Virus record (IMG/VR): IMGVR_UViG_3300028773_000063
Span: 1-22,424 of that record
Strand: one strand, 5' to 3'
Length of the DNA: 22,424 bases
DNA from: a virus
The notes under the pieces: model-generated
The model's database searches: none
Told to the model about the DNA's origin: nothing
What the model saw: only the letters and a program-made list of their open reading frames with translations
Position numbers and translations under genes: made by a program
In this document: in pieces, positions 265-21,683 of the stretch
Layout of the letters: each line of letters opens with the position of its first letter
Numbering within the stretch: position 1 is the first letter of the stretch

Positions 265-1014
265 GTTACTTTCTCACCGCTACACAGTTTTGCAGAGTGG
301 TGCATCTATCGGCGCACCTGGTGGTGGACTGGTGAATTGTCCTGGTTCAGCACGACGCACGTAGGTGCGGTGCAATTACAGAAGCCGACTGTGCTTCATT
401 GGAGCCAGCACGTATTCGATGCCTACGTTTCAGGGGCATGGCTGCTGGTATGGACAGACACCACCTTGTACTGGATCGCAAAACCCACCGTGACGACAGA
501 GCTTGTGAATGGTCGCAGACAACTGCACAACGCGACCGGTCCGACCTTGGAGTGCGACGTGCAGAATCTCTACTTCTGGCACGGCGTGATGGTGCCGGCG
601 TTCGTGGTAGTGAAGCCTGAGTGGATTACGCTCAAGCATATCGAGACCGAGGACAATGCCGAAGTACGCCGCGTGATGATCGAGCGTTATGGTACGGCGC
701 GATACATCAAGGATTCAGGGGCTGAAGTGGTTCACGAACTTCCGGACAACTATTACGTCAAGGGGCTGCAAGGCGCGAAGCTTTATCGCAAACCGCGCAA
801 GGATGATTCAGACATCATCATGATCTCGGTCGCCAACTCCACGCCAGAGCCCGACGGTAGCATCAAGCAGTACATGCTGCGCATACAGCCCGACGCGTAC
901 AACGGAGCAGCGGCCAAGGATTGTCACGCGGCCATGGCGTCTACGTGGCGGCGGCAGGATGGGACGCTGTATTTCAGCAAGCCGCAGGACTACCGCCCCG
1001 AGTTTGAATCATGA
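1..1014 (+). CDS. Ala-rich tripeptide-repeat protein with DUF6745-like C-terminal domain (5' end outside window)
   Basis: The frame is open from the first base, so the gene begins left of the window and the in-frame TTG at 337 need not be its start. The first 87 codons are an uninterrupted x-[A/D]-A tripeptide repeat (see the repeat entry). A Trp-rich linker (RRTWWWTGELSWF) follows, then a domain with LHNATGPTLE, YFWHGVMVP, NAEVRRVMIERYG and NSTPEPDGSIKQYMLR. I associate these motifs with the DUF6745 family, whose members often have Ala-rich repetitive N-termini; this is from memory, not a search. Function is unknown. There is no signal peptide or membrane segment in the visible part. The TGA stop overlaps the next start as ATGA (1011-1014), so the two genes are probably translationally coupled. 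I am sure it is coding and moderately sure of the family. Confidence 0.85.
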   Translation, partial: HDALAAHDALAAHDALDASAASDARDALAALAARDALDARAARAASAAHAALDASDASDARAARAARAAHDASAARAALAASAASDALVTFSPLHSFAEWCIYRRTWWWTGELSWFSTTHVGAVQLQKPTVLHWSQHVFDAYVSGAWLLVWTDTTLYWIAKPTVTTELVNGRRQLHNATGPTLECDVQNLYFWHGVMVPAFVVVKPEWITLKHIETEDNAEVRRVMIERYGTARYIKDSGAEVVHELPDNYYVKGLQGAKLYRKPRKDDSDIIMISVANSTPEPDGSIKQYMLRIQPDAYNGAAAKDCHAAMASTWRRQDGTLYFSKPQDYRPEFES

Positions 1015-2789: not shown

Positions 2790-2988
2790 AATCAACCAGA
2801 GGTGGGAGCAGTTCACCGCAGAAGCCGAGCGCCGGGGTTGCGATGTGCGGGTGGCTTACCACACAGACAGCGGCATCTGGCACGCTCTGGATCGTTCCAA
2901 GGCGCCTGCGCGTGTACCTTTAGGTCAGTGGACTGATGTTGAGGGTGGGACTGCCGAATGGTTGGCGGAGAATGGGCAAGAACCATGA
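2782..2988 (+). CDS. small hypothetical protein, 68 aa
   Basis: The ATG at 2782 lies within the last codons of the preceding gene (8-base overlap). The protein is mostly charged and aromatic (NQRWEQFTAEAERRGCDVRV), with no membrane segment or obvious motif. Its end overlaps the next miniprotein (ATGATGA around 2985-2988). The coding call rests on position in the packed operon and the uninterrupted frame. Function is unknown. Confidence 0.65.
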   Translation: MNKINQRWEQFTAEAERRGCDVRVAYHTDSGIWHALDRSKAPARVPLGQWTDVEGGTAEWLAENGQEP

Positions 2989-3104
2989 TGCATGAGATAC
3001 GAGTGTGGCTTGGTGGGTGCCTTTTGGTCGGCGGTTGGGCGGTCGCTGCTGAAATCGCAAAATGGCTTGGGGCCCATTGGGCGTTCGAACTTCGCCGGCA
3101 CTGA
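2985..3104 (+). CDS. 39-residue single-pass membrane miniprotein
   Basis: ATG at 2985 (ATGATG, overlapping the previous stop at 2986-2988) runs to TGA at 3102-3104. The next gene's ATG follows immediately at 3105. The peptide has a short charged N-terminus, a hydrophobic Gly/Ala/Trp-rich stretch (VWLGGCLLVGGWAVAAEIA) and a basic end FELRRH. That layout suits a single inner-membrane helix with a basic, probably cytoplasmic, C-terminus. It exactly fills what would otherwise be a 116-base hole in a gap-free operon. Function is unknown; candidates include a small membrane effector such as an exclusion factor or lysis modulator, but this is inference only. Confidence 0.6.
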   Translation: MMHEIRVWLGGCLLVGGWAVAAEIAKWLGAHWAFELRRH

Positions 3105-3416
3105 ATGAACATCCTGCAGCTACTCGACAGGCGTCCTGACGTACCGCTCAAATTGCGGCTCATGGCTGTTCAGGGTGGCCTCTGCTGGATTTGTCACAAG
3201 CCGATCTGTTTGGAGAAGGGCTGCATGAACTATGCCACTAGGGACCATATACAGCCGGTGAAGCATGGCGGCACAGCGCAATCAAATATTCTGCTGGCTC
3301 ATTTCGCCTGCAATGTCGCGAGACAGGCCCCGAAGCTAATGGAAAAGCGCAGAACCTATATGGAGTGGGCGCTCTCGCGCGTCAGGCGAGCAGCTCCAAC
3401 CGTGTCAGATGAATAG
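3105..3416 (+). CDS. HNH endonuclease-like protein, 103 aa
   Basis: The protein shows the HNH signature in order: CWIC (Cys27 and Cys30), RDHIQPVKHGG (Asp47-His48, the His expected to be catalytic), Asn61 in SNILLAH, and His66 with Cys69-Asn70 in AHFACN. The second zinc pair appears as His-x2-Cys and not the usual Cys-x2-Cys, while the Asn and His of the beta-beta-alpha metal fold are present. Such enzymes cut DNA using a divalent metal. In phages they act as homing endonucleases or as packaging and degradation nucleases. The small size, with no extra DNA-binding domain, suits a free-standing HNH. It begins one base after the upstream stop. Confidence 0.85.
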   Translation: MNILQLLDRRPDVPLKLRLMAVQGGLCWICHKPICLEKGCMNYATRDHIQPVKHGGTAQSNILLAHFACNVARQAPKLMEKRRTYMEWALSRVRRAAPTVSDE

Positions 3417-3430
3417 AAATCCGGTTGAGC

Positions 3431-3640
3431 ATGCTTGATTTCATACGCGCATGGATCTGGCTACCGTCCCGCGAGGGGAAGTCCTACGGCTTCGCCTCGG
3501 GCTCTGAGCGCAGACGCTGGTTCGAGCGCGGGTCGGTGGAGGTTAACGGGCGGAAAGCGGCTGCGGACGATCCGTGGCCCTCAGAAACAGATAGTGTCGT
3601 ACTGCATCCCAGTGGCCGGCACAGAACGACACTCGTTTAG
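3431..3640 (+). CDS. small phage hypothetical protein, S4-like 'RRWFxxGxVxxNG' motif, 69 aa
   Basis: I chose the ATG at 3431; an in-frame TTG at 3425 would add two residues. The core SERRRWFERGSVEVNGRKA resembles the turn of S4-type RNA-binding domains (R-x-W-hydrophobic-x2-G-x-V-x-hydrophobic-N-G). Small phage proteins with an N-terminal WLPSRE-like segment followed by this motif are familiar, but I know no function. No membrane segment is predicted. A shifted-frame ORF over the same bases reads as low-quality basic/Ser-rich sequence and was discarded. Confidence 0.7.
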   Translation: MLDFIRAWIWLPSREGKSYGFASGSERRRWFERGSVEVNGRKAAADDPWPSETDSVVLHPSGRHRTTLV

Positions 3641-3652
3641 AGACTCCGCACC

Positions 3653-3757
3653 ATGAATCTAGAAGTAGATGCGCCGCATGGGTTCGACTGGCGTGAATGT
3701 GTGAGGGAATGCATCACTAGCGCACGCTCAGCCGTAACCGTGGACGTTAAGCCATGA
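3653..3757 (+). CDS. 34-residue hypothetical protein
   Basis: The ATG at 3653 is 12 bases after the previous stop. The TGA at 3755-3757 overlaps the next ATG at 3754 (ATGA). The peptide begins MNLEVDAPHGFDWRECVREC and ends in TVDVKP, with two Cys four residues apart. The ATGA junction and the lack of any other gene in this stretch support translation. There is no strong Shine-Dalgarno sequence and no recognisable motif. Confidence 0.45.
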   Translation: MNLEVDAPHGFDWRECVRECITSARSAVTVDVKP

Positions 3758-3894
3758 TAATACCTACGGCTGGGTGGATTTTGGCCCGCAGCTATCAGCT
3801 GGCGCGGTTCGATGTCACTAACGAGTTTGGCGTGCGTTTGGTCGGTTGGGCCTATATCGGCCCACCGGAATCACAGTCCGAGGGACAGAAATGA
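3754..3894 (+). CDS. 46-residue hypothetical protein
   Basis: The ATG at 3754 overlaps the preceding stop (ATGA). The TGA at 3892-3894 overlaps the following ATG at 3891 (ATGA). The peptide (MIIPTAGWILARSYQLARF, ending ESQSEGQK) is weakly amphipathic with a Gly/Trp/Tyr segment near the middle. No family is recognised. The two flanking ATGA junctions are the main evidence that this short frame is used. Confidence 0.5.
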   Translation: MIIPTAGWILARSYQLARFDVTNEFGVRLVGWAYIGPPESQSEGQK

Positions 3895-4172
3895 GATATG
3901 AGACTCGTTGGCGTCGCCGCGCTAGAGAGCGCGAACAATGGCACGTCAAATTCGCTCTGTTCCCAAGGGAGATTGGTGCCGAGAGCGTATGGCTAGAGAA
4001 TTATTGGCGTCGATGGTGTCCTGGGCCTTATGTGACTGAAGATGACCGCATAGACGCTATCTATGCCGCAATGGCCGGATGTAATTGGGGCTATTGGGAA
4101 TACAGTTTGCAGCCCCCGAAGTCGCCCGATAGGGACGAGAAAGTTGTTTCCATAAGAAGGCTCACCGTTTAA
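3891..4172 (+). CDS. small basic/aromatic hypothetical protein, 93 aa
   Basis: The frame is open from 3846, but I place the start at ATG 3891 because it overlaps the upstream stop as ATGA and gives MRYETRWRRRAREREQW. The N-terminus is strongly basic and the protein is rich in Trp and Tyr (WLENYWRRW, NWGYWEYSL). Nucleic-acid binding is possible from the basic start but unproven. It is the last gene of the plus-strand arm, and the facing minus-strand gene ends 66 bases further on. Confidence 0.65.
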   Translation: MRYETRWRRRAREREQWHVKFALFPREIGAESVWLENYWRRWCPGPYVTEDDRIDAIYAAMAGCNWGYWEYSLQPPKSPDRDEKVVSIRRLTV

Positions 4173-4618: not shown

Positions 4619-4882
4619 TCATTGTCGGTGGGTTCCCACGCGCGGGGCCATCACGAGATCCCCTTCGCTTGCGGTCGGGAGTGCGATCATGAGGGCCTTG
4701 GGGATCGCTTCCTTGCAAGAGGCTTCGTCCTTGAATAGATACGAATCCACATACGTCACTTCGAGCGTCTTGGGTGCGTACCAGTAGACGTGAAGAACGG
4801 CGGCATTGCCGAGGGTGCGGGGCTGGTGCTGTTCGTCAGCATTTGCGGTAGCGGCCAGTAAGAGTGCAATCAAGTATTTCAC
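4619..4882 (-). CDS. small secreted/periplasmic protein of the lysis region, 87 aa
   Basis: The start is GTG at 4882. It overlaps the stop of the upstream gene as GTGA (4879-4882) and has AGAAGG 8 bases upstream. From there the protein begins with a classic signal peptide: Lys2, hydrophobic core YLIALLLAAT, and a probable cleavage after ANA before DEQHQ. A longer frame to 4933 would bury this signal behind charged residues and is less likely. The mature part is about 70 residues with one Cys (EASCKEA), so it is predicted periplasmic. I do not recognise the family. Its place at the end of the lysis cassette suggests a periplasmic role in lysis or exclusion of other phages, but that is inference. 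Confidence 0.65.
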   Translation of the reverse strand: MKYLIALLLAATANADEQHQPRTLGNAAVLHVYWYAPKTLEVTYVDSYLFKDEASCKEAIPKALMIALPTASEGDLVMAPRVGTHRQ

Positions 4883-5226
4883 TGATGTTTCCTTCTCACG
4901 TTGATGTCGGCCCCCTCTTCTGCTCTTTCCCACTTGCGCGATTGTTCATCGACGCGGCGTTCAAGATCGTTCACCCTCTCCTGCAGCACCGCGGCTGAGG
5001 TGTCGCGTGTGGGCAGGGAATCGATCTTGGTGGTAAGTTCGGCTACGCGCTGCTCGAGGCGATCGATCTTTCCCGTAAGACCTTCCCAGAACGCACCGGC
5101 CGCCCACACGAAGCCGATAAAGCTGAACACCGCAAGCACAAACCTGTAGTTGACGGATGCCCATGAGGCGCCCTTCTGGAGCGTCCTTAAGGTCGCCGTG
5201 AAGGTTTCATCGGGCTTGGTATCCAC
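4879..5226 (-). CDS. membrane-anchored coiled-coil protein of the lysis cassette, 115 aa
   Basis: GTG start at 5226, overlapping the end of Rz by 20 bases. The protein has a short N-terminal charged segment, one membrane helix around residues 28-48 (YRFVLAVFSFIGFVWAAGAF), then a long charged coiled coil (KIDRLEQRVAELTTKIDSL and VLQERVNDLERRVDEQ). This layout occurs in small phage membrane proteins of lysis regions, such as i-spanin-like or accessory holin proteins. A true Rz is already present next door, so this is an additional component. Topology and role are not settled by sequence. It is coupled to the following secreted protein by a GTGA overlap. Confidence 0.7.
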   Translation of the reverse strand: MDTKPDETFTATLRTLQKGASWASVNYRFVLAVFSFIGFVWAAGAFWEGLTGKIDRLEQRVAELTTKIDSLPTRDTSAAVLQERVNDLERRVDEQSRKWERAEEGADINVRRKHQ

Positions 5227-5704
5227 GAAGCTGCGCGCTCACGGCGTCGGCTCTTGCCGCAAGAAAGTTAAGCAGTCCACCGACATCGGGGCCTGGCCCT
5301 GTCCGTACGCCAGAATCTCGCGAAGGCACCGGCTGAACATTTGTGGGGGCGGCGCTGGGATGGCTAGCTCCGCTGCTACCACCGGTTGCTTGGGGCATGC
5401 TTCCACCATTGGGGGCTTGGTAGCACAGCCGTACATCAGCCACGGGATGAGCATCCCGATAAGCAGCCGCTTCACTTTGTTCCTGCACATAGGCTTTCTC
5501 CGCAGCGTCAGAGCGCTGCTGTAGCTCCATTGTCTTTGCTGCGGCCTCTACTTGCGTCTTCTCATCGTTGGCCGTTTCCTGCGCCTTGTAGCTCGTGAAC
5601 TGGTTTTGCAGGTGGCTATAACGCACGTCCTCATAGAGATGTGTGGCGTAGCCACCTACCGCAGCGCAGAGGAGCGCGATGGCGGCGTAGATATACGCGC
5701 TCAT
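5207..5704 (-). CDS. Rz: i-spanin (Rz-like inner-membrane spanin subunit), 165 aa
   Basis: The start at 5704 overlaps the holin-like stop as ATGA. The N-terminus is a single membrane helix (YIYAAIALLCAAVGGYA, residues about 4-20). It is followed by a long helical, Gln/Ala/Glu-rich periplasmic coiled coil (about residues 25-85), a Gly/Ser/Pro-rich linker and a C-terminal helix ending in FLAARADAVSAQLRGYQ. That end is typical of Rz-like proteins. Spanins join the inner and outer membranes and complete lysis of Gram-negative hosts after endolysin action. The partner Rz1 is nested inside this gene in another frame, which strongly supports the assignment. Confidence 0.85.
   Translation of the reverse strand: MSAYIYAAIALLCAAVGGYATHLYEDVRYSHLQNQFTSYKAQETANDEKTQVEAAAKTMELQQRSDAAEKAYVQEQSEAAAYRDAHPVADVRLCYQAPNGGSMPQATGGSSGASHPSAAPTNVQPVPSRDSGVRTGPGPDVGGLLNFLAARADAVSAQLRGYQAR
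5239..5490 (-). CDS. Rz1: o-spanin (Rz1-like outer-membrane lipoprotein) embedded in Rz, 83 aa
   Basis: The frame lies wholly inside the Rz gene in a different reading frame. It starts at ATG 5490 with GGAG 7 bases upstream. The protein has a basic N-terminus (MCRNKVKRLL), a hydrophobic core and a lipobox-like WLMYGC, so Cys22 would be lipidated. Met at -3 and Tyr at -2 are not the commonest residues. The mature part is Pro-rich (ATKPPMVEACPKQP, IPAPPPQ), as in Rz1 proteins. It would sit in the outer membrane and bind the periplasmic end of Rz. A fully embedded Rz1 is the arrangement known from lambda. Confidence 0.82.
   Translation of the reverse strand: MCRNKVKRLLIGMLIPWLMYGCATKPPMVEACPKQPVVAAELAIPAPPPQMFSRCLREILAYGQGQAPMSVDCLTFLRQEPTP
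5498..5501 (-). promoter_or_regulatory. ribosome binding site of embedded Rz1
   Basis: GGAG on the minus strand lies 7 bases upstream of the Rz1 ATG, inside the Rz coding sequence. It supports independent initiation of the nested frame. Confidence 0.65.
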
Positions 5705-5952
5705 TGGGGCGGCTCCGGTGGCTTCAGCGTTGCCTGCTTGGCGCGCCAGAAGATGAGGCTGCCGAGGGCTACGCGAAGGCCTGCGTACCAGTGGCCCCCG
5801 ATCAGGGTTGTGATGTCGTGCTCGAACCCCGTTAGGTAGGCGACCACGTCACTGCCGGCAAGGATTACAAGGAAAGCCGAGATGGTCTTCTGGATATGAT
5901 TGGCCCAGAAATAGGCCAGCTTGGCTTTGATAGAGGCTAGGAAGGCGTTCAT
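5701..5952 (-). CDS. holin-like small membrane protein, 83 aa
   Basis: I place the start at ATG 5952, which overlaps the endolysin stop as ATGA. An in-frame ATG at 5964 would add MGEF. The protein has two hydrophobic segments (TISAFLVILAGSDVVAYL and WYAGLRVALGSLIFW) and a polar tail ending KPPEPPQ. With its small size and position between endolysin and spanins, this fits a phage holin, which forms the inner-membrane lesions that time lysis. The double start (MGEF-MN) recalls dual-start holin/antiholin pairs. The four-residue difference carries no extra positive charge, so I do not press this. Family assignment is by context and topology, not by a specific motif. Confidence 0.7.
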   Translation of the reverse strand: MNAFLASIKAKLAYFWANHIQKTISAFLVILAGSDVVAYLTGFEHDITTLIGGHWYAGLRVALGSLIFWRAKQATLKPPEPPQ

Positions 5953-6398
5953 GAATTCACCCATTGGCCACTTGAAAGTATTTGCATTTCGCGCTTAGCG
6001 CGTCCCGGCGTCTGAAACTTGGCCCAATCGCTATCAAGTCCTGCGGCAGCCGCCGCATTCCAGTCCTGAGCGGTCAGGGCTCCCATAAAATCTGGCCAGT
6101 TGAGCGGCTTATCCCCGAGCTGGAAGGTCATAGAGATGAGCGCGGCTTGCTGGTTGTCATTCATTTGGCCCCAGTTGGGGAATTGTCTAGCGGTGTTTTC
6201 GGCTGCCGCCATATCCTTTTCCAACTGTAGGTCGGATTTTAATTGCGTCCATATGAGACCCCGATACAGTGCATCGTTCTCGGCATTTGAAATCCCTAGC
6301 GTGTGCCCATAGCCAATAAACCAGTAGCCCATCGTGTCGATGGCTGCCTCAAGGATGCATCCCTCTTCCTCGGTTATCAGAACTTCCGCGAGACTCAC
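5949..6398 (-). CDS. endolysin, T4-lysozyme-type muramidase (GH24), 149 aa
   Basis: GTG start at 6398 with GGAG 8 bases upstream, overlapping the previous stop as GTGA. It aligns by eye with T4 lysozyme. EEEG gives Glu12 (T4 Glu11) and AAIDTMGYW gives Asp21 (T4 Asp20). WFIGYGHTLG, LISMTFQLGD and the C-terminal FQTPGRAKRE and GQW match conserved blocks. The spacing Glu +9 Asp +15 is kept, but the position of T4 Thr26 is Phe27. The enzyme should hydrolyse the MurNAc-GlcNAc bond of peptidoglycan, if still active. Length is normal for the family. I see no signal or SAR anchor, so release probably depends on the neighbouring holin. Confidence 0.9.
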   Translation of the reverse strand: MSLAEVLITEEEGCILEAAIDTMGYWFIGYGHTLGISNAENDALYRGLIWTQLKSDLQLEKDMAAAENTARQFPNWGQMNDNQQAALISMTFQLGDKPLNWPDFMGALTAQDWNAAAAAGLDSDWAKFQTPGRAKREMQILSSGQWVNS

Positions 6399-6634
6399 TT
6401 GGGCTTCTCCGGCTTTTCCTTCTGCCCGTGGTAAAGCGCGTCTTTCATCTCCTTCTGTTCATCGGCGTAGTAGTCCGCCTCAGCCCTAAGATCGGCAGAA
6501 CGCTTGGCATCGGGCTCCTGCATCGCTTCCCGGTGCAGCGTGTCGCTACGCTCGCCCAAGGCGTGCACAGCAGCTTCACCGGTAGACTGACGGATGTGTA
6601 TCCAGATCCAGCGGATTAAGTGCTTGACGGTCAT
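6395..6634 (-). CDS. hypothetical protein between tailspike and endolysin, 79 aa
   Basis: The start at 6634 overlaps the tailspike stop as ATGA, and the stop overlaps the endolysin GTG as GTGA. The N-terminal 15 residues are hydrophobic and basic (MTVKHLIRWIWIHIRQ). The rest is a very charged helix (KRSADLRAEADYYADEQKEM) ending in a Lys/Pro-rich tail. The N-terminus could lie on or in the membrane. Its place at the head of the lysis block suggests a lysis-associated role, but no family is recognised. Confidence 0.7.
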   Translation of the reverse strand: MTVKHLIRWIWIHIRQSTGEAAVHALGERSDTLHREAMQEPDAKRSADLRAEADYYADEQKEMKDALYHGQKEKPEKPK

Positions 6635-8598
6635 GCGAGAAGGATGCCGCGCGCCTTGAGTGCCAGTAATATCTCGGCCACTGCGCCACTGGTCTGCAGC
6701 AACGTTGCAGTCGCCCCTGGAAAGTTCGTGGTGATGGTGTTACCCGTCGGAGTGCCGAAGCCGGAAGCATAGGGCGCTACATTGCAGGCCCAACTCGTGC
6801 CATCCACGCCATTGCCGCCAAATGTCCAATTCGCGGAATTTCCTATGAGGACACAGTTACCGGTGACAGCCGCCACAGCACCCAAGCCGCTGCCGATGTT
6901 CAAAACCATGCTGCCGGTCAGAAGGAAACTCTGTCCTGAGAGCTGACCGGGAATGTTCAGGCCCTGACTCGTGGCCTCACTGATGCGTGATACCCAAAGA
7001 CCATTGAGAGTGACGTTGGCATCATGAGCACCAATCGCTGCCCCCCCTGAAGCATTGGAATAGAGCTTGCAGTCATGGATGGAGATAGCGACGTTCGTCA
7101 TCGACGACGCAGCGGCGCCGAAGTAAATGGCATAGGTCGGTAACGTCGCGGCTCGCTCAGTCGAGCAACCGATGAAACTGCAGTCCGAACTGAAGCCGTA
7201 GGTCTGATCAAAGTACACGCCTGACCGACAGCCGTTCGCAGAGCACCACAGGTTACTGGCCCGGAAAGACGCGACTTCATCAAGGCACAAGCAGTCGGAA
7301 GTGTTCGTACCTGAGTTGATAGCCAGGTCTGTGTCAGTGAAGCGGATGACCGTGGTGGAGGCTGGCGTCGGCACCGGGTTGTAAATCGTGGTGAACGGGG
7401 ACGACAGGCCCGCGTTGTTGTTCGCGGTGCAGACTGCCGCTCGCGCCCCGGCAGCGGGGTTGAAGTTATTGAAATAGCACCCGTTCACCAGCAGGTTTTC
7501 AGAACCGAAATTGTAGAAGCAGGCCACCGAGAAATAGCCAACAATCTTGACGCTCTTCAGCTGATTGATGAGGCTGCCGCCGGTGTTGTTGCGGGCCAAA
7601 AGTATCCCGGTCTGTGGAAATAGGTTGCTCGTCGGGATGGCGGTCCCGATAGTGAGATCCTCAAAGATGATGTTGTCATTACCGGTGCAATCAAAGATGG
7701 CAACGCCGTTGTGCTGGGCAATCACCTGATACGTCTGGTCCTTACCGCCGATGCCGCGCACAAGAACCGGATTCTGGTTGGCACCACCGGTGAACGTACA
7801 ATTGATGGGCGCTGACACAAAGTAGGGTCCGCCTGTCAGTTCCAGTCGACCGCCGGTCTGCGCGATAACGTAATAGGCCGTCTGGATGGCCGACGTCATG
7901 TCGGTAGTGCCTGGCGTTGTGTTCACCGTATAGCGCTCAGGCCGCCCCACGGCTGCAAAGAAATTCGCCACCGAACCGCCATACAGGCCGAACACGGTAG
8001 TTTCGGTCGCCGTCTGCGCGTAAGGCGTGCTTGAACCTAAGAACGTGTTGAACTGTGACTGCGGAGTCACCGCATACATCGCGTTGAAGGTCGCCTGCGT
8101 CAGCGCATTAAGCAGCGGAACTGCGACTGTCGGGAGCCCATTGCTGTCGAATCCGAGCAGCGTATTGGCGCGAGCGGATGCATTCGGCAGCATCGTCCAC
8201 GGAGTGAGTTCCGTATCCGGCCCGTGGAAGCCGAACGTCAGAACCTGTCGCACGACGTCCTGCAATGCACGGGTCAGCCGGTCCATGCCGTTGGTGGTGT
8301 TCTCCGGCAGGTAGGCCGTGAGATTCGCAAACTCCGTGGGCTGGATCTCGGGCACCGCGGTGCGCAGGTCGACTGTCGTATTAAGGGGCGGGGCTGTGGT
8401 GAAGGTGACCTGTCCGCCGCCATTAACGCCTACGCCAGATACGGTGTAGCCGGTCGTCTGGAGTTGATACACCCCGCCCGTGATGAAGCCGACGACAAGG
8501 TCGGTGGTGGCGAAGATCTTCCACGGGAAGCTGAAGGTAACGGCCGTGCCGTTGCCTGCGTACTCAACTGGGGAAGAGTTTCCTAGCGCTATAGTCAT
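6631..8598 (-). CDS. tailspike / tail fibre protein with predicted beta-helix body, 655 aa
   Basis: The N-terminal ~120 residues carry the T7-fibre-type attachment pattern: VEYAGNGTAVTFSFPWKIF, then GYTVSGVG, VTFTTAPP, a region like 'P-x2-Q-P-T-E-F' and NGMDRLTRALQDVV. After a linker, residues from about 210 on (GRPERYTVNTTPGTTDMTSA, then GGRLELTGGPYFVSAPI) resemble the start of pectate-lyase-like right-handed beta-helix tailspikes. Strand-rich Asn/Gly/Ser repeats follow to the C-terminus. Such proteins bind, and often cleave, host surface polysaccharide; catalytic residues cannot be assigned by eye. It is coupled by ATGA to the gp16-like gene before it and the 79-residue gene after it. Confidence 0.85.
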   Translation of the reverse strand: MTIALGNSSPVEYAGNGTAVTFSFPWKIFATTDLVVGFITGGVYQLQTTGYTVSGVGVNGGGQVTFTTAPPLNTTVDLRTAVPEIQPTEFANLTAYLPENTTNGMDRLTRALQDVVRQVLTFGFHGPDTELTPWTMLPNASARANTLLGFDSNGLPTVAVPLLNALTQATFNAMYAVTPQSQFNTFLGSSTPYAQTATETTVFGLYGGSVANFFAAVGRPERYTVNTTPGTTDMTSAIQTAYYVIAQTGGRLELTGGPYFVSAPINCTFTGGANQNPVLVRGIGGKDQTYQVIAQHNGVAIFDCTGNDNIIFEDLTIGTAIPTSNLFPQTGILLARNNTGGSLINQLKSVKIVGYFSVACFYNFGSENLLVNGCYFNNFNPAAGARAAVCTANNNAGLSSPFTTIYNPVPTPASTTVIRFTDTDLAINSGTNTSDCLCLDEVASFRASNLWCSANGCRSGVYFDQTYGFSSDCSFIGCSTERAATLPTYAIYFGAAASSMTNVAISIHDCKLYSNASGGAAIGAHDANVTLNGLWVSRISEATSQGLNIPGQLSGQSFLLTGSMVLNIGSGLGAVAAVTGNCVLIGNSANWTFGGNGVDGTSWACNVAPYASGFGTPTGNTITTNFPGATATLLQTSGAVAEILLALKARGILLA

Positions 8599-11500
8599 GG
8601 TGCGGCGGCCTCCGCTGGTTGCCGGTCAGCATTGCTAGTTCCGGGTAAATCGAACAAGTCGCCGATTCCATCTTCGGCAGCATTCACGGCGCGGCGGAAA
8701 TACCAGAGGTTCTGGCCAGGGGCCATGCGGCGCAGGAAGTGAAGGTCAGAGCGTCTGAAGGGCAGGTTCTCCTGTCCGGGGAGTCCCTGTCCGCCCGTGG
8801 CAAGGTTTGCAAGGCGCGCGGGGAAGCGGTGCGCCCAGGCATCCCCGAGCATCCCGACCGAGGGCCCGAGGACCGTCTCGTACGGGTCGCGGTCACTCCA
8901 GCGCGATAGATCCTTAAAGCCTGCCATCCAAAGCGCGGGGAAGATCACCTCCCCGGTCCACCCGAGGAGGTTCGACTTATCGAGCACTTCGCCCGCAAGT
9001 TTCCCCGGTGTCGTCTCGATGGGCTGGCCGGCGGCCTTTTGCTTGGCGACGTACGAGAGCGTGCCCATGGCGGTGAGGGCGATCAGGGCTTCGGCCGAGC
9101 GCACATCCCCGTGGGCTAGTCCCTGCATCAGTGGCATTGCAACAACGCGACTAGCCGCGAATGCAAAGCTCTTGAACTGGGCGACCGCCTTACCCCATTC
9201 CGTTGACATGAATAGCGGGGTATCCCCGACACCGGGACGTAACGTGACGCCGTGGGCTTCCCGCAGGACCGCCGACTCGAACGCTTTAGCGGCCTTCTGA
9301 TCCTTCCAGGTATCCGACATCCCGAAACGCAGACCATTGACCTTTCGCCCATTGGCGGTCCCTTCGGTGGCTATACGCCGCAACATGTCTTCATCGAGGC
9401 CGGCGGCGGCGAGCTTCGCGGAAAGATTTCCGTTGACTGCGCGCCCACCGGCTACCCGGTCAGCGACATTCAGGATCTCGTGCTGGGCGAGGGTTGAGGT
9501 CATCGCCTGCACGAGCGTGATCAGCGGGGTCTCGCCCGTCCCAATCGTGAAAGCTCGAGCCGCCCCCGCTGCGAACCGCTGCTCCAGATACCGGCTGTGC
9601 GAGCCGTAGTCTCCGAGGAGTGAGGCTGAGACATTCATCGTCATATCGATGGCCGCGCCCATGCGCTGCGCTTGCCGCAAGGAGAGCTTCGCCGCTTCCA
9701 TACTGGAGGCGAGCTTCGCCATGGCGGTGAAGGTATTGCCCATCCCGTAGCGAGCGATGACATTGCCGATGTCAGGGAAGTGGGCGAGCGTCGCAGCGCC
9801 CAGGAGCCGCCCGACGTTCGCCTGACGCATGAGACGCCCGGCACGCACGAAGAAAGAGCCGGGGTCCTTGGGCGCGCCATAGATCCCATAGAGCCTGTCG
9901 CGAATGGCGCCCAGGTCCCGCAGTACGCCGTCCCGCTCGTTATCGAGTGAGACCATGCCCTTCTCATCGCCCTGCGCCCTCGCCTGTTCGATCATGTGGG
10001 CGTATTCGTCGGTGATGTCGCCGAACTGGTCTTTGAGGTCCCGGGACCCAAAGCGCTCGGTCATCTCCACTTCCGAGCCCATCGAGCGCAGGTAGGAGTG
10101 CGAAAGATGGTCGATATCGTTGACGAGGAAGGGCTCAAGCTCAGTATCCGGCATCGAGAGCGTGCGTTCCTTCATGTTGTCGGACTTAGGAACGATGCCG
10201 TCCGTCGTGTGCCAGTCCATCGTGCCGCGCTCGCTCCCCCTGACGTTACGGGTGGCGGCGTGCGCCACATCGGTAGCTTCCGCGGGATCTACCCCCTGAC
10301 CGATGAAGTGCGTACGCAGGCGATCAATCCAGTCCTTGTAATTGGCATTGATCTTCTGAATGTCGTACTGGCGGGTCAGGTAGGAGTCCGCATAGAGCTT
10401 GGCCTCCTCGGGGACGAGTCCCGCCTTGGTCGCGCGCTCGTAGAGCGGCTGGAAAATGTTCTTGCGCGTCCACTGAGCGGCCTTCGCAATCTCAGGCACC
10501 GCGCTCTGATCCCCCCGGCGCATGGCCGCAGAGATACCCTCCATAAAGTCCCGGCGGGGCATGGCCTGCTGGCCTTCCTGCTGCATGCGAGTGACGTACT
10601 CGCCAAAGGCGGTCTTCCTCGCCTGCATGCCCTGAACGTGCAGCCCGTCATAGCCCCAGAGGATGCGCTCTACGGGATTAGGATTAGCCGCCCCGCGATA
10701 GTTCTGGGTGAGCGTGCCCGGGAGGTTCGCCAGCTCGGTGAGCGTCTCGCGAGCCTTGACCGACTGGCTGCCCATGATCCTGCCGCCGGGCGTGACCTGA
10801 CCTACGGTTGCTGTCAGCGTCTGTGCCCCGCGCGCGGTAGTCAGCCCCTCTTTCGTGGGCTGACTCGCCGCAGCTGCGCCCATCGTCGACTGCTCTTCGG
10901 GGTTAACGTAGGCGGGCTCCCCGGGGAGCGAGCCCTCAAGATGGGTCTGCTGCGCGGGCTCTACGCCCTCTGCCGGCTCATGCTTGGGTATCTCGCCATC
11001 GACTGTGGCATCCAGCGCGCTACGTTGCTCGGGGCCCATCATCTTATCGCCCTCACCCTTGAGTTCTGGTGCGAGGTTGGTGCGCAGCCGCTCAAGCGTG
11101 CGGTTAGGGGCGGTGCGCGCAATACCCCCCAAGAGGCCTCCCAGGACCGCGCCAGCGCCTACATTCAATGCAGACTCACCGAACGTGCGCGTCTCGGATA
11201 ACTGATGGCTGACGAGCTCCTGACCTGCCGTGGTGGCAGCGTTGGTGAGCCCCCACCGCAACATGTTGCCGAGGCGTGTCGGCGCAGCCTCCGGAACCAG
11301 CGCCATCGTGGCGAGTGTCAGGGGATCTGTGGCGCCCGCTGCAAGACTCGCCGCCACGCCCCTGGCGCCCCCGCGTGCGATCACGCCCTGATCCGTCCGC
11401 TCGGAATCAATCTGCCGCTTCTCCTGCTCTATCTGCTCAGGGTTGGTGGCGTGTAGAAAGCGCGAACCGTAATCGTGCAGGTAGCCAGCCGGGATGTGAT

Positions 11501-11714
11501 CGATGGGATTAAACCCGGGTTGCGCTTTACCTGATGGGAATAGCGTGTCGTTAGACCACCGGTCGTAGAGTTGGCCTGCGATGTTGCCGGTACGCTCGGC
11601 AGAGGCCATCACGTCCAGGGTGTCAGGGGCTGGCTGCGCCTGCTCGGGAGGTGGGGCGGGGAACCGCGGTAATGCTGCGTCCGTAGGATCTGCGCTGGAG
11701 TCCAGAACTGGCAT
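8595..11714 (-). CDS. large internal virion / DNA ejection protein (gp16-like position), 1039 aa
   Basis: It is the largest and last of three consecutive genes in the gp14-gp15-gp16 positions of podoviruses. The C-terminal part has AQFKSFAFAASRVVAMPLMQ, then a hydrophobic LIALTAMGTLSYVAKQK. Towards the end come LGPSVGMLGDAW and FLRRMAPGQNLWYFRRA, a pattern I associate with ejection proteins and related large virion proteins. A Gly-rich hydrophobic stretch (GAGAVLGGLLGGI, residues about 190-205) may insert in membranes. The N-terminal 50 residues are Pro/Ala-rich. I see no soluble lytic transglycosylase motif at the N-terminus as found in T7 gp16. Such proteins leave the capsid before DNA and form the trans-envelope channel. 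Start ATG 11714 overlaps the preceding stop (TGATG). Confidence 0.78.
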   Translation of the reverse strand: MPVLDSSADPTDAALPRFPAPPPEQAQPAPDTLDVMASAERTGNIAGQLYDRWSNDTLFPSGKAQPGFNPIDHIPAGYLHDYGSRFLHATNPEQIEQEKRQIDSERTDQGVIARGGARGVAASLAAGATDPLTLATMALVPEAAPTRLGNMLRWGLTNAATTAGQELVSHQLSETRTFGESALNVGAGAVLGGLLGGIARTAPNRTLERLRTNLAPELKGEGDKMMGPEQRSALDATVDGEIPKHEPAEGVEPAQQTHLEGSLPGEPAYVNPEEQSTMGAAAASQPTKEGLTTARGAQTLTATVGQVTPGGRIMGSQSVKARETLTELANLPGTLTQNYRGAANPNPVERILWGYDGLHVQGMQARKTAFGEYVTRMQQEGQQAMPRRDFMEGISAAMRRGDQSAVPEIAKAAQWTRKNIFQPLYERATKAGLVPEEAKLYADSYLTRQYDIQKINANYKDWIDRLRTHFIGQGVDPAEATDVAHAATRNVRGSERGTMDWHTTDGIVPKSDNMKERTLSMPDTELEPFLVNDIDHLSHSYLRSMGSEVEMTERFGSRDLKDQFGDITDEYAHMIEQARAQGDEKGMVSLDNERDGVLRDLGAIRDRLYGIYGAPKDPGSFFVRAGRLMRQANVGRLLGAATLAHFPDIGNVIARYGMGNTFTAMAKLASSMEAAKLSLRQAQRMGAAIDMTMNVSASLLGDYGSHSRYLEQRFAAGAARAFTIGTGETPLITLVQAMTSTLAQHEILNVADRVAGGRAVNGNLSAKLAAAGLDEDMLRRIATEGTANGRKVNGLRFGMSDTWKDQKAAKAFESAVLREAHGVTLRPGVGDTPLFMSTEWGKAVAQFKSFAFAASRVVAMPLMQGLAHGDVRSAEALIALTAMGTLSYVAKQKAAGQPIETTPGKLAGEVLDKSNLLGWTGEVIFPALWMAGFKDLSRWSDRDPYETVLGPSVGMLGDAWAHRFPARLANLATGGQGLPGQENLPFRRSDLHFLRRMAPGQNLWYFRRAVNAAEDGIGDLFDLPGTSNADRQPAEAAAP

Positions 11715-13894
11715 CAGTAGCCCACCCCGGGGGTCTGGTTCTGGGCGGCTACATCCTCGCGCTGCCGACGTCTATTGAGTGCTGCGCGGTCCTGATCTTC
11801 CTGGGTCTGGCGCTCCACTTCTGCCATGGGGTCTGGCTTCTTTTGGCCGGGGAGTTGGTAGCGCACCGGCATGCCCTTATCGTTGCGGACCACGTCCCAG
11901 GCGCCAAATTCGTCCTTCTGCGCAAGGCTCCAGACCCGTCCGCCAGAAGACCCCGTCTCCGGGCCCTCGACTAACCGCGCAGCGCCGTATCCCGACGCCG
12001 CCATATCTGAACGAATGTCGTCCTTGGAGAGATACGGGAACATGCGCTCGGGCGCGTACTTCATGAGTTCGCGCGAGCCATTGACCTCGGACACCCCCCA
12101 CGTGGCCTTAAGATCATTAATGGCAAGCTGCTGCGCCTGTTTGAGATTGCCGTCCGTGTGATAGAAGTATTGCTTTGTGAGTTCGGAAAATTCAGCGGCC
12201 ATCGGGGTGGGCGGCACCGGCACTGTGTTGCTGAGGTGCAGCCCCGGCGCCTTGTAGTGCTCATCATCCGCTAGCCCGTTGCGAATGGCGTTGCTGTCAA
12301 TCGTCATCCACTTCTGCCCGGGCGAGCGCTGCGAGTTCCAGGCATCGTCCAGAAACTTCTTGTCGGTGGCGCTCCTCGCGGTAGCTTCGCGCGTAAGATT
12401 GACTGCGCCCTCAGGAGACGCGCCGGCAGTGACAGCGCTATTGATGCTCTCAGCCATCGCGCGGGTCTGCTCGTCCGTGGCTTCCATGTACGCACGAGGG
12501 TTGGCACGCTGCAGGCTCGCCAGTAACTGCGCACCCTTGGCCGCAGTATCTGGATCTGCGCCCACGATGCTGGCGCGCCCGAACGAGACAGCGCTCTCAG
12601 GAACCACGCCCACTCGGGAAGTGATGGCGACCGCCGCATTGTTGTATGCGTCAGACCCCGCAGGCGACCCCATCGTCGTGAACGCGAGATAGGAATTAAC
12701 GGCCTTCTTGGCCTCCGCACTCTTACCGTCCATGGGCGTGGATGACTCAACGTGATCGCGTACGTAATCGAGCGACAGTTCTTCCTGATCGCCTTTCTTC
12801 TGAGCGCGCAGGATCTGATCGCGCATCGTCAGGCGCTGATCGTCGGTGAGGGCGCCTTTGCGCCACAGTGACTCAACCGTCCCCAGGGCGCCTGGAGTGA
12901 CGGTTCCAGAAGCGATAGAGCCATCCAGCGCAGTCAATGCGCGGCGGTTAGCGGGGTCTTGCCGGCGCTCATTAGCCAGCGCCGCCCTCCCCCGGTCGAC
13001 CTCTTCTGTAACCTTGGCCTGCTGCTCCGGGGTGAGCCCGGACTGTTCAATCTTCGAGAGCGCATCGGCGCCCACATTCGTATCCTGCTTGTAGGCCCCG
13101 AGGATTGAATTTGCGCTGGCAGACACCTCGCCATCCTGGATGGCACGCTCGAACGTCTTAGCGTCCTGCGGGCGAAGCTCTGCGCGCACAGCATCGTAAT
13201 AGGCCTTCGCCATCGGCACTTTCTGGTCGGCCAGCATGTTGCCGATGACGCCTTCATTCATCTTGACGTGAGCCTGGTACTTCGACTCATTCAACATGTC
13301 ATCCGACCACCCTTGCTGATGGGCGAGACTTTCTAAAGAGGCATCGATGTGATCGCGATTGGTGGCGAGAATGTCGGGATGGTTGTAGTTAGCCGCCGCA
13401 GTCTGCTGGGCGAGTTCAACCGAGGTCTGCGCGGTTTTTATGCCGAACTGGCGGTGCTGCTCAAGTTCGTGCGTGTCCAGCTGCTCTGAGAGATGGTTCC
13501 TGACCTGTCCGGCGGCTAATGCTGCGGCTTGCCGGGCCCGTGGATCGGGCACGGCCGCCACGATATTAGCGGCCTGTTCATCGAACTTCGGCAGGTACTG
13601 ACCTGAGATACCGAAGGCGTCTTTCCCCTCCTTGGTAAAAGCCCCGGTACTCGGATCGTGCGTCAGTCCGAGCGACAGCGCCTGTAGTTGGTTATGGGCG
13701 TCCGTGAGCTGTGATTGACGCGCCTGATCCATGGCAGCGTTGACGTGCTGCTGCACCTCGGTGCCTGCGTACTCAACCGCCCGTCCCACTTCGCCACCAA
13801 AGGCGCCTGACGGGACTTCCTCAGGGACGTGCGGATAGGCACGTCCCGGCAGTGCATCCGGCTGGATCTGCGGGCTATAGGTCAGATCGACCAC
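11714..13894 (-). CDS. internal virion protein (gp15-like position), 726 aa
   Basis: GTG start at 13894, sharing a base with the upstream TAG (TAGTG). The protein is largely helical, rich in Ala, Gln and Asp, with no membrane segment and few recognisable motifs. Examples are the long helices around HVNAAMDQARQSQLTDAHNQ and AKVTEEVDRGRAALANERRQ. Length and position between the small gp14-like and large gp16-like genes match the middle ejection protein of podoviruses, which forms the tube crossing the periplasm. The C-terminus is highly polar (RAALNRRRQREDVAAQ). Assignment is from gene order, size and composition. Confidence 0.7.
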   Translation of the reverse strand: MVDLTYSPQIQPDALPGRAYPHVPEEVPSGAFGGEVGRAVEYAGTEVQQHVNAAMDQARQSQLTDAHNQLQALSLGLTHDPSTGAFTKEGKDAFGISGQYLPKFDEQAANIVAAVPDPRARQAAALAAGQVRNHLSEQLDTHELEQHRQFGIKTAQTSVELAQQTAAANYNHPDILATNRDHIDASLESLAHQQGWSDDMLNESKYQAHVKMNEGVIGNMLADQKVPMAKAYYDAVRAELRPQDAKTFERAIQDGEVSASANSILGAYKQDTNVGADALSKIEQSGLTPEQQAKVTEEVDRGRAALANERRQDPANRRALTALDGSIASGTVTPGALGTVESLWRKGALTDDQRLTMRDQILRAQKKGDQEELSLDYVRDHVESSTPMDGKSAEAKKAVNSYLAFTTMGSPAGSDAYNNAAVAITSRVGVVPESAVSFGRASIVGADPDTAAKGAQLLASLQRANPRAYMEATDEQTRAMAESINSAVTAGASPEGAVNLTREATARSATDKKFLDDAWNSQRSPGQKWMTIDSNAIRNGLADDEHYKAPGLHLSNTVPVPPTPMAAEFSELTKQYFYHTDGNLKQAQQLAINDLKATWGVSEVNGSRELMKYAPERMFPYLSKDDIRSDMAASGYGAARLVEGPETGSSGGRVWSLAQKDEFGAWDVVRNDKGMPVRYQLPGQKKPDPMAEVERQTQEDQDRAALNRRRQREDVAAQNQTPGVGY

Positions 13895-20681: not shown

Positions 20682-21683
20682 TTAGGAAACCGTGGCTTCG
20701 GTGTTGAGGATCTGGTCGACCTTGCGAAGCGGAATTCCCAGGAACTTGTATTCGATCTGGGTCAGACCCTCCTCTACGCTCAAGGCGGCGTTGGATTTCG
20801 CCAGCGCCTGAATCTTCAGGATGCTGAACATGGTGCGGTTCATGTAGAACGCACAGTTACCGGCCGTCAGTGAGGGCAGACGGTCAATCGAGCGGCTCAT
20901 GAGGCCGATGAGATCCGCCGCGATGTTGTTGGATGTGATGGTCGTATCGATGTTGCAGATACGAACTACATACCTCCAATCCGGTACCGCCAGGCCACAG
21001 CGCCACTCCCAGTACTCCCGATACGCCATCATGCGGGCGCCACCGACGCCTGCGACGTTCTCCACTACCTGGAGGCCCAGGTCATGGTGCTGCAAGCCTG
21101 CCTGTGAACCCTTCGGGAAGATGCCAAAGACCGAGTTCGGTCCCCAGCACACGAGCCAGATGGAGGTATTGACGGAGGCCGAACCACCTCCTGAAATGAT
21201 GTTCTGTGCGAATGCGCCGCCCGAGATTTTGTTGTATCTCGGAAAGAGTCCGCGGAAGACCGAAGGCGCTGCTGTCGGGTCACCGTAGATGGTGAGCTGC
21301 GAGAAGCCCTGGTTCATCGATTCGATGAAGGCATCCGCTTCCGTCATGCGGAAGGCAGCTTCTTGGCCGTTGAGTTCGGCCACGGACTTATCCACTTCGA
21401 GGAAGCCTGCGAGTTCCGCGGTAGCCTCATCCACACCCATCGTGGTGGACTTGCTCGGCGGAATGCCCTGGTTCATGGCCCGGGCCATGACGACCGGCAA
21501 ACCCGTGCGCTGGATTACCCTGTGACCGGTGGCAAGATTGCCTTCCTGCCAGTGCATGTCCGGGAGCATCTCGTTCTTCTGAGCGAGTAGCTCAACGATG
21601 AGCGGGATGCGTCCACCGGGATCGGAACGCGTCGCCCAATCGGCAAGGGTGAGAACGTTTGAAGCAACAGCTATTTGGGTCAC
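20682..21683 (-). CDS. major capsid protein, BPP-1-type, 333 aa
   Basis: GTG start at 21683 with AGGAG 7 bases upstream. The conserved layout I recall for this podoviral capsid family is present in order: LADWATRSDPGGRIPLIVEL, QKNEMLPDMHWQEGNLATGH, RTGLPVVMARAMNQGI, PPSKSTTM, EVDKSVAELNGQEAAFRMTE, AFIESMNQGF, YGDPTAAPSVFRGLFPRYN and a C-terminal GIPLRKVDQILNTE. It lies between scaffold and cement-like genes, as expected. BPP-1's capsid protein has a rearranged HK97-like fold, and the same topology may apply here. The length is normal. Confidence 0.9.
   Translation of the reverse strand: MTQIAVASNVLTLADWATRSDPGGRIPLIVELLAQKNEMLPDMHWQEGNLATGHRVIQRTGLPVVMARAMNQGIPPSKSTTMGVDEATAELAGFLEVDKSVAELNGQEAAFRMTEADAFIESMNQGFSQLTIYGDPTAAPSVFRGLFPRYNKISGGAFAQNIISGGGSASVNTSIWLVCWGPNSVFGIFPKGSQAGLQHHDLGLQVVENVAGVGGARMMAYREYWEWRCGLAVPDWRYVVRICNIDTTITSNNIAADLIGLMSRSIDRLPSLTAGNCAFYMNRTMFSILKIQALAKSNAALSVEEGLTQIEYKFLGIPLRKVDQILNTEATVS

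Follow-up and report, generated by a model that had tools for sequence, protein, structure and literature searches.

Phage T4 lysozyme (gpE; GH24v, PF00959) uses Glu11 as general acid and Asp20 as general base, and the portions consulted of a 2021 paper give the motif Glu-X8-Asp/Cys-X5-Thr for all published structures of T4-lysozyme-like endolysins, together with a conserved Tyr18 in the canonical muramidases (PMC8228626). The same portions describe natural variation within the triad, with the P1 lysozyme-type enzymes carrying Cys in place of Asp20 (PMC8228626). At position 26, the engineered T4 variants T26E and T26H (PMC7060211, PMC2976769) bring in polar and potentially nucleophilic residues. 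We describe here a phage GH24 enzyme in which Tyr18 and Thr26, both near-invariant, are replaced together, and this paired replacement recurs in one unrelated phage.

The window, by which we mean the whole stretch of DNA that was analyzed, is a 22,424-base virus record with its late genes on the minus strand, in the order major capsid protein, tail and internal virion proteins, and lysis region. The major capsid protein (20682-21683) is of the epsilon15 gp7 type (PF20911, 7.7e-112; NCBIfam MCP_gp7_epsi_15), so the phage head is epsilon15-like. Small plus-strand ORFs lie opposite the late genes and include one for a DUF6745 protein (337-1014, plus strand, 4.4e-27); a small HNH endonuclease is encoded at 3105-3416 (plus strand, PF01844, 6.2e-5). 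The internal virion protein (1039 aa, 8595-11714) has a longer counterpart of 1412 aa in another viral contig (L158, 6929-11167), with 56% identity in the best segment and extra sequence in the latter. The L158 sequence stops short of the lysis genes, so its lysozyme could not be seen. A 726-aa protein (11714-13894) matched PHROG 1044, labeled "endolysin", at 6.7e-36, with the best stretch confined to residues 39-229 and no Pfam match at 0.001; this label may have been carried over from fused relatives. The lysis region comprises the following features.

4879-5226, minus strand: single-segment membrane protein of 115 aa with a likely coiled coil, possibly another membrane protein of the lysis region (Pfam and PHROG searches, hydropathy)
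5207-5704, minus strand: Rz-like inner-membrane spanin, 165 aa (PHROG 2466, 1.1e-4; N-terminal membrane segment)
5239-5490, minus strand: Rz1-like lipoprotein ORF, 83 aa, nested in Rz in another frame (lipobox-like LMYGC; weak match to the PHROG 812 spanin, E = 0.062)
5701-5964, minus strand: candidate holin of 87 aa, predicted to have a single membrane segment (hydropathy; weak match to PHROG 16811, of unknown function, 2.8e-4)
5949-6398, minus strand: GH24 (T4-lysozyme-type) endolysin ORF, 149 aa, GTG start (ORF list, Pfam, PHROG, predicted model)
6395-6634, minus strand: ORF of 79 aa with a stop codon that overlaps the start of the endolysin gene (nothing matched in Pfam at E 0.1; hydropathy showed no membrane segment)
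6407-6410, minus strand: GGAG, a ribosome-binding-like site 8 bases upstream of the GTG start (read from the sequence)

The overlap between the endolysin start and the stop of the upstream ORF takes the form GTGA. Downstream, the Rz-like and Rz1-like ORFs form an adjacent spanin pair in which Rz1 was matched just weakly, and holin is our guess for the 5701-5964 product, which had no match to a holin family in Pfam or PHROG. The closest relative of the endolysin that we found (L184, IMG/VR contig 3300047496_000217) is 51-53% identical and shares its QLGDKPL block. On the contig of this relative (L291), a membrane-type ORF and then Rz/Rz1-like ORFs come after the endolysin gene, the same order by eye as in the window. 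Because the gene has spanin-like and membrane-protein neighbors here and a similar gene order in the contig of its relative, these sequence comparisons point to the 5949-6398 product as the lysis endolysin.

The family assignment made in the earlier note, a T4-type endolysin at this position, was borne out by profile searches with Pfam PF00959 (Phage_lysozyme; 5.2e-15; 56.3 bits, cut-off 22.3) and PHROG 7 endolysin (2.5e-23). An AlphaFold2 model (mean pLDDT 96.3, pTM 0.88) is predicted to have the T4-lysozyme fold: T4 lysozyme entries ranked first both in a Foldseek search (9.2e-9) and in VIA-align, with 26-31% identity in the structure-match rows, and the VIA-align match to the T4 lysozyme mutant 3fi5 gave a Z of 18.9 and 1.9 A over 145 residues. 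No Pfam match to the lytic transglycosylase (lambda R type) family was obtained at E 0.1. The enzyme shares with T4 lysozyme the Glu and Asp at their exact spacing, the equivalents of Gly12, Gly23, Gly30 and Gly107, and a QTPxRAKR block, and it differs in being shorter between the two lobes and in having Ala and Phe where T4 has Tyr18 and Thr26. The residues concerned, assigned by alignment, are as follows.

6363-6365, minus strand: Glu12, codon GAG, equivalent to T4 Glu11 (general acid)
6342-6344, minus strand: Ala19, codon GCC, replacing T4 Tyr18
6336-6338, minus strand: Asp21, codon GAC, equivalent to T4 Asp20 (general base)
6318-6320, minus strand: Phe27, codon TTT, replacing T4 Thr26

The alignments agree with the earlier note in equating Glu12 and Asp21 with the T4 acid and base, and Phe27 fell in the Thr column in several of them. 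Asp21 stands nine residues after the Glu, as in the canonical Glu-X8-(Asp/Cys)-X5-Thr arrangement, and the Glu-X8-Asp-X5 spacing is exact, with neither gap nor shift within the motif. An alignment that puts another Thr or Ser in the active site was one of the findings that the earlier note had named as refuting its reading; another Thr or Ser at position 26 was looked for and ruled out, with no hydroxyl residue aligning with T4 Thr26. The Tyr18 conserved in canonical muramidases is Ala19 here, a loss that the earlier note had not recorded. Since Phe27 stands where Thr (or Ser) is expected, six residues past the Asp, the protein is by descent and predicted fold a GH24 enzyme, not one with the canonical triad. 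Sequencing error was ruled out as the source of these codons: stretches from three other IMG/VR contigs were identical over 7408, 5500 and 8447 bases, although these contigs may be resamplings of one population and so bear on sequencing accuracy, not on evolution. Relative to L184, which is canonical at both sites (Tyr and Thr), the codons differ as TAT against GCC (position 18) and ACA against TTT (position 26), and each of these amino acid replacements takes at least two base changes.

Among 17 columns conserved in at least 85% of the homologues, the window enzyme keeps 14, including Glu12, Asp21 and Arg133, and general decay of the gene is therefore unlikely. Its three departures are at columns 19, 27 and 101, the last a Phe to Trp change that is also present in L184. 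These observations bear on the proposal that the endolysin is catalytically dead or nearly so and binds peptidoglycan or serves some other role, lysis being carried out by an enzyme encoded elsewhere. We regard this as possible but unlikely. The water-positioning residue has been lost together with its conserved neighbor Tyr18, and the 22.4-kb record is possibly a fragment, which would leave room for a second enzyme outside it. Against the proposal, Glu, Asp and 12 of the 15 other most conserved positions are intact; the gene retains its ribosome-binding-like site, its start overlap and its Rz/Rz1-like and membrane-type neighbors; and a further PF00959 gene was found neither in the window (protein-level search) nor in an overlapping contig of 27.8 kb. 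In favor of the proposal, a co-opted, "detoxified" phage lysin is reportedly the subject of a 2019 study by Randich, said to concern SpmX.

To gauge the rarity of these replacements we surveyed positions 18 and 26. A DNA search with the pattern D..G.W.IG.GH, which leaves both positions free, returned at least 120 viral stretches, and among the matches listed (n = 120) position 26 was Thr in 118, Ser in one and Asn in one; the row with Asn has no Glu and gave no match to the GH24 profile. All 104 of the stretches listed with a correctly spaced Glu had both Thr26 and Tyr18. Profile searches (E 1e-3, ORFs of at least 90 aa, all collected loci) gave 224 hits, or 200 once exact duplicates were removed, with near-duplicates remaining. 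The aligned set of 201 rows including the window became 198 after removal of two rows gapped at both positions and of the window's own locus copy; the rows were gathered via patterns and likeness to the window and thus do not sample GH24 at random. Tyr18 was accompanied by Thr26 in 193 of these rows and by Ser26 in 3 (196 of 198), in keeping with the earlier note's statement that nearly all GH24 enzymes have Thr at position 26. The other two rows are the window enzyme (Ala/Phe) and one from an unrelated contig (L032, IMG/VR contig 3300028298_000393; Thr/Phe), so that the sole rows with Phe26 are also the sole rows without Tyr18. Apart from the window, Tyr18 is present in 196 of 197 rows, L032 having Thr. 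At the Asp20 position, Cys stood in 13 of the 199 rows that have a letter there; unlike in the two Phe26 enzymes, in these P1-type rows it is the Asp that varies, and the Thr is kept in all but one of the 13, which has Ser.

Searches aimed at Phe26 added no third case. The motif GxxFIGYGH matched 6 stretches in the viral collection, of which three belong to the same phage and three are not lysozymes by eye. With DxxGxxFIGxGH, the viral scan yielded 25 stretches; three were again the same phage, and L032 alone of the other 22 was a GH24 profile match. With EGx7DxxGxxFIG there were 26, comprising three from the same phage, L032, and 22 others without a GH24 profile match. In genome contigs, the Phe motif occurred in at least 119 stretches, with no GH24 profile match among the matches listed. 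The viral motif scans thus contained no third Phe26 GH24 enzyme; motifs with FVG or FLG, or with a different spacing, fall outside the patterns, and the ORFs covered by the profile searches are those of at least 90 aa. Phage and plasmid collections supplied 10 and 3 records, respectively, all distant homologues below 60% identity. We found no report of a natural Phe26 GH24 enzyme among the titles and abstract openings listed from the open-licence literature, a weak negative because only open-licence papers were covered.

L032 resembles the window enzyme in having Phe26, in having lost Tyr18 (to Thr) and in keeping the Glu and Asp, and it matches PF00959 at 36.8 bits. It departs at 4 of the 17 conserved columns, namely 19, 27, 125 (Trp to Ala) and 129 (Gln to Lys). 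Both Phe26 enzymes have an Asp at position 124 (codon 6027-6029 in the window), which by our own reading of the alignment corresponds to T4 Arg137 and which is Asp in just 3 of 133 other rows. The L032 contig is small, and beside the lysozyme gene it carries an ORF (2948-4003, minus strand) that by eye is reverse-transcriptase-like and may be part of a diversity-generating retroelement.

We examined the relationship between the two Phe26 enzymes by phylogenetic analysis with columns 19 and 27 masked. The IQ-TREE analysis included 69 rows (the window and viral contigs), 67 of them canonical at both positions. The window enzyme grouped with L184 (support 100/99) and L032 with L296 (100/98), values from a run whose bootstrap had not settled, and both partners are canonical. 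A tree forcing the window and L032 together was 79 log-likelihood units worse and was rejected (p-AU 0.011); this pair had been singled out ahead of the IQ-TREE analysis, but by then an initial FastTree tree had already separated them (189 rows; the locus copy of the window, L001, and any row shorter than 95 aa were left out, and one row that shares its locus name with another was entered under a new name). A single clade of Phe lysozymes, the grouping that the earlier note had suggested looking for, was thereby ruled out; two lineages were found, with different canonical sisters, and loss of Tyr18/Thr26 requires a minimum of two changes on the IQ-TREE tree. With a canonical nearest relative in each case and the joined tree rejected, the sequence comparisons suggest that the paired change probably arose twice.

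The pairing might carry no functional meaning if two relaxed lineages lost the same two neighboring residues by chance, an explanation that we consider very unlikely. It draws on there being two known cases only, one of which, L032, lacks other conserved residues and came to light because Phe at position 26 had been searched for. That search, however, did not involve Tyr18, and the association is complete: both rows with Phe26 lack Tyr18, and all 196 rows with Thr or Ser have it. By hand arithmetic that ignores relatedness and near-duplicates, the chance that two cases in 198 rows would pair so completely is 1 in 19,503. The replacement at position 26 is, moreover, Phe in both cases.

The interpretation that we favor, to which we assign about an even chance, is a functional GH24 endolysin whose active-site floor has been repacked by coupled Tyr18 to Ala and Thr26 to Phe changes. 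In the predicted model, residues 15-20 and 25-29 form two neighboring strands. For T4 lysozyme, water bridges from Tyr18 to Glu11 and Gly28 have been described, as has contact between a chlorine placed on the Tyr18 ring and the Gly28 carbonyl (PMC10064326, PMC11273360; sources consulted in part). These bridges and this contact place the Tyr18 ring close to the catalytic Glu as well as to the strand that carries residue 26, and repacking is then the simplest account of a large residue 26 combined with a small residue 18. On the second beta-strand, the Phe ring would occupy the slot that the Tyr ring of the first has left empty. Protonation of the glycosidic bond would still fall to Glu12, and Asp21 alone would hold the attacking water, without a threonine hydroxyl, so that hydrolysis would proceed by Glu12 and Asp21, perhaps more slowly. 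An active enzyme of this kind is the most likely state. Among the outcomes that the earlier note had offered side by side (inactivity, a different mechanism, or compensation by another residue), compensation is the best supported, not through another Thr or Ser but with Tyr18 lost in step.

The T4 variants offer a partial comparison. According to the sections consulted, T26E still cleaves its substrate, with the product staying attached as a covalent adduct (PMC7060211), which indicates that Thr26 is dispensable for bond cleavage. From this and the retaining mechanism of T26H, our reading is that Thr26 controls the step involving the water and not the breaking of the bond itself. The likeness extends to the position changed; unlike the introduced Glu and His, Phe is neither polar nor potentially nucleophilic, and it is paired with a Tyr18 change. 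Several points count against the repacking interpretation. The role of Thr26 has been called pivotal (PMC2976769, as consulted in part), and the seven structurally characterized relatives tabulated in the portions seen of PMC8228626 all have threonine. Phe offers no side-chain hydroxyl for the water, and the Tyr18 and Thr26 hydroxyls are both lost. L032 has also lost Trp125 (to Ala) and Gln129 (to Lys), so that it may itself be a weakened enzyme.

An active enzyme with a different chemistry or substrate would also account for the site, by attack of the MurNAc C6 hydroxyl to give a 1,6-anhydro product, by transglycosylation or by action on a modified glycan; we think this quite unlikely. With the water-holding Thr replaced by a hydrophobic Phe, hydrolysis could be disfavored, and changes at this position in T4 lysozyme are reported, in the sections consulted, to alter the outcome of the reaction: T26H turns the inverting enzyme into a retaining one (PMC2976769), and T26E forms its adduct (PMC7060211). 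The occurrence of this paired change on two branches and the rare Asp124 common to both Phe26 enzymes also fit such a shift. Retention of Asp21, the base of the hydrolytic mechanism, argues against it, and the sharing of Asp124 could be coincidence. In the most far-reaching form of this idea, to which we give only a slim chance, a natural alternative GH24 site would have been reached twice, with an aromatic residue 26 excluding the hydrolytic water and yielding a lytic transglycosylase-like or transglycosylating muralytic enzyme in place of an inverting hydrolase.

With a natural member of the family that has dispensed with Thr26, the need for this residue can be tested directly. The joint replacement further suggests positions 18 and 26 as a residue pair that must change together.
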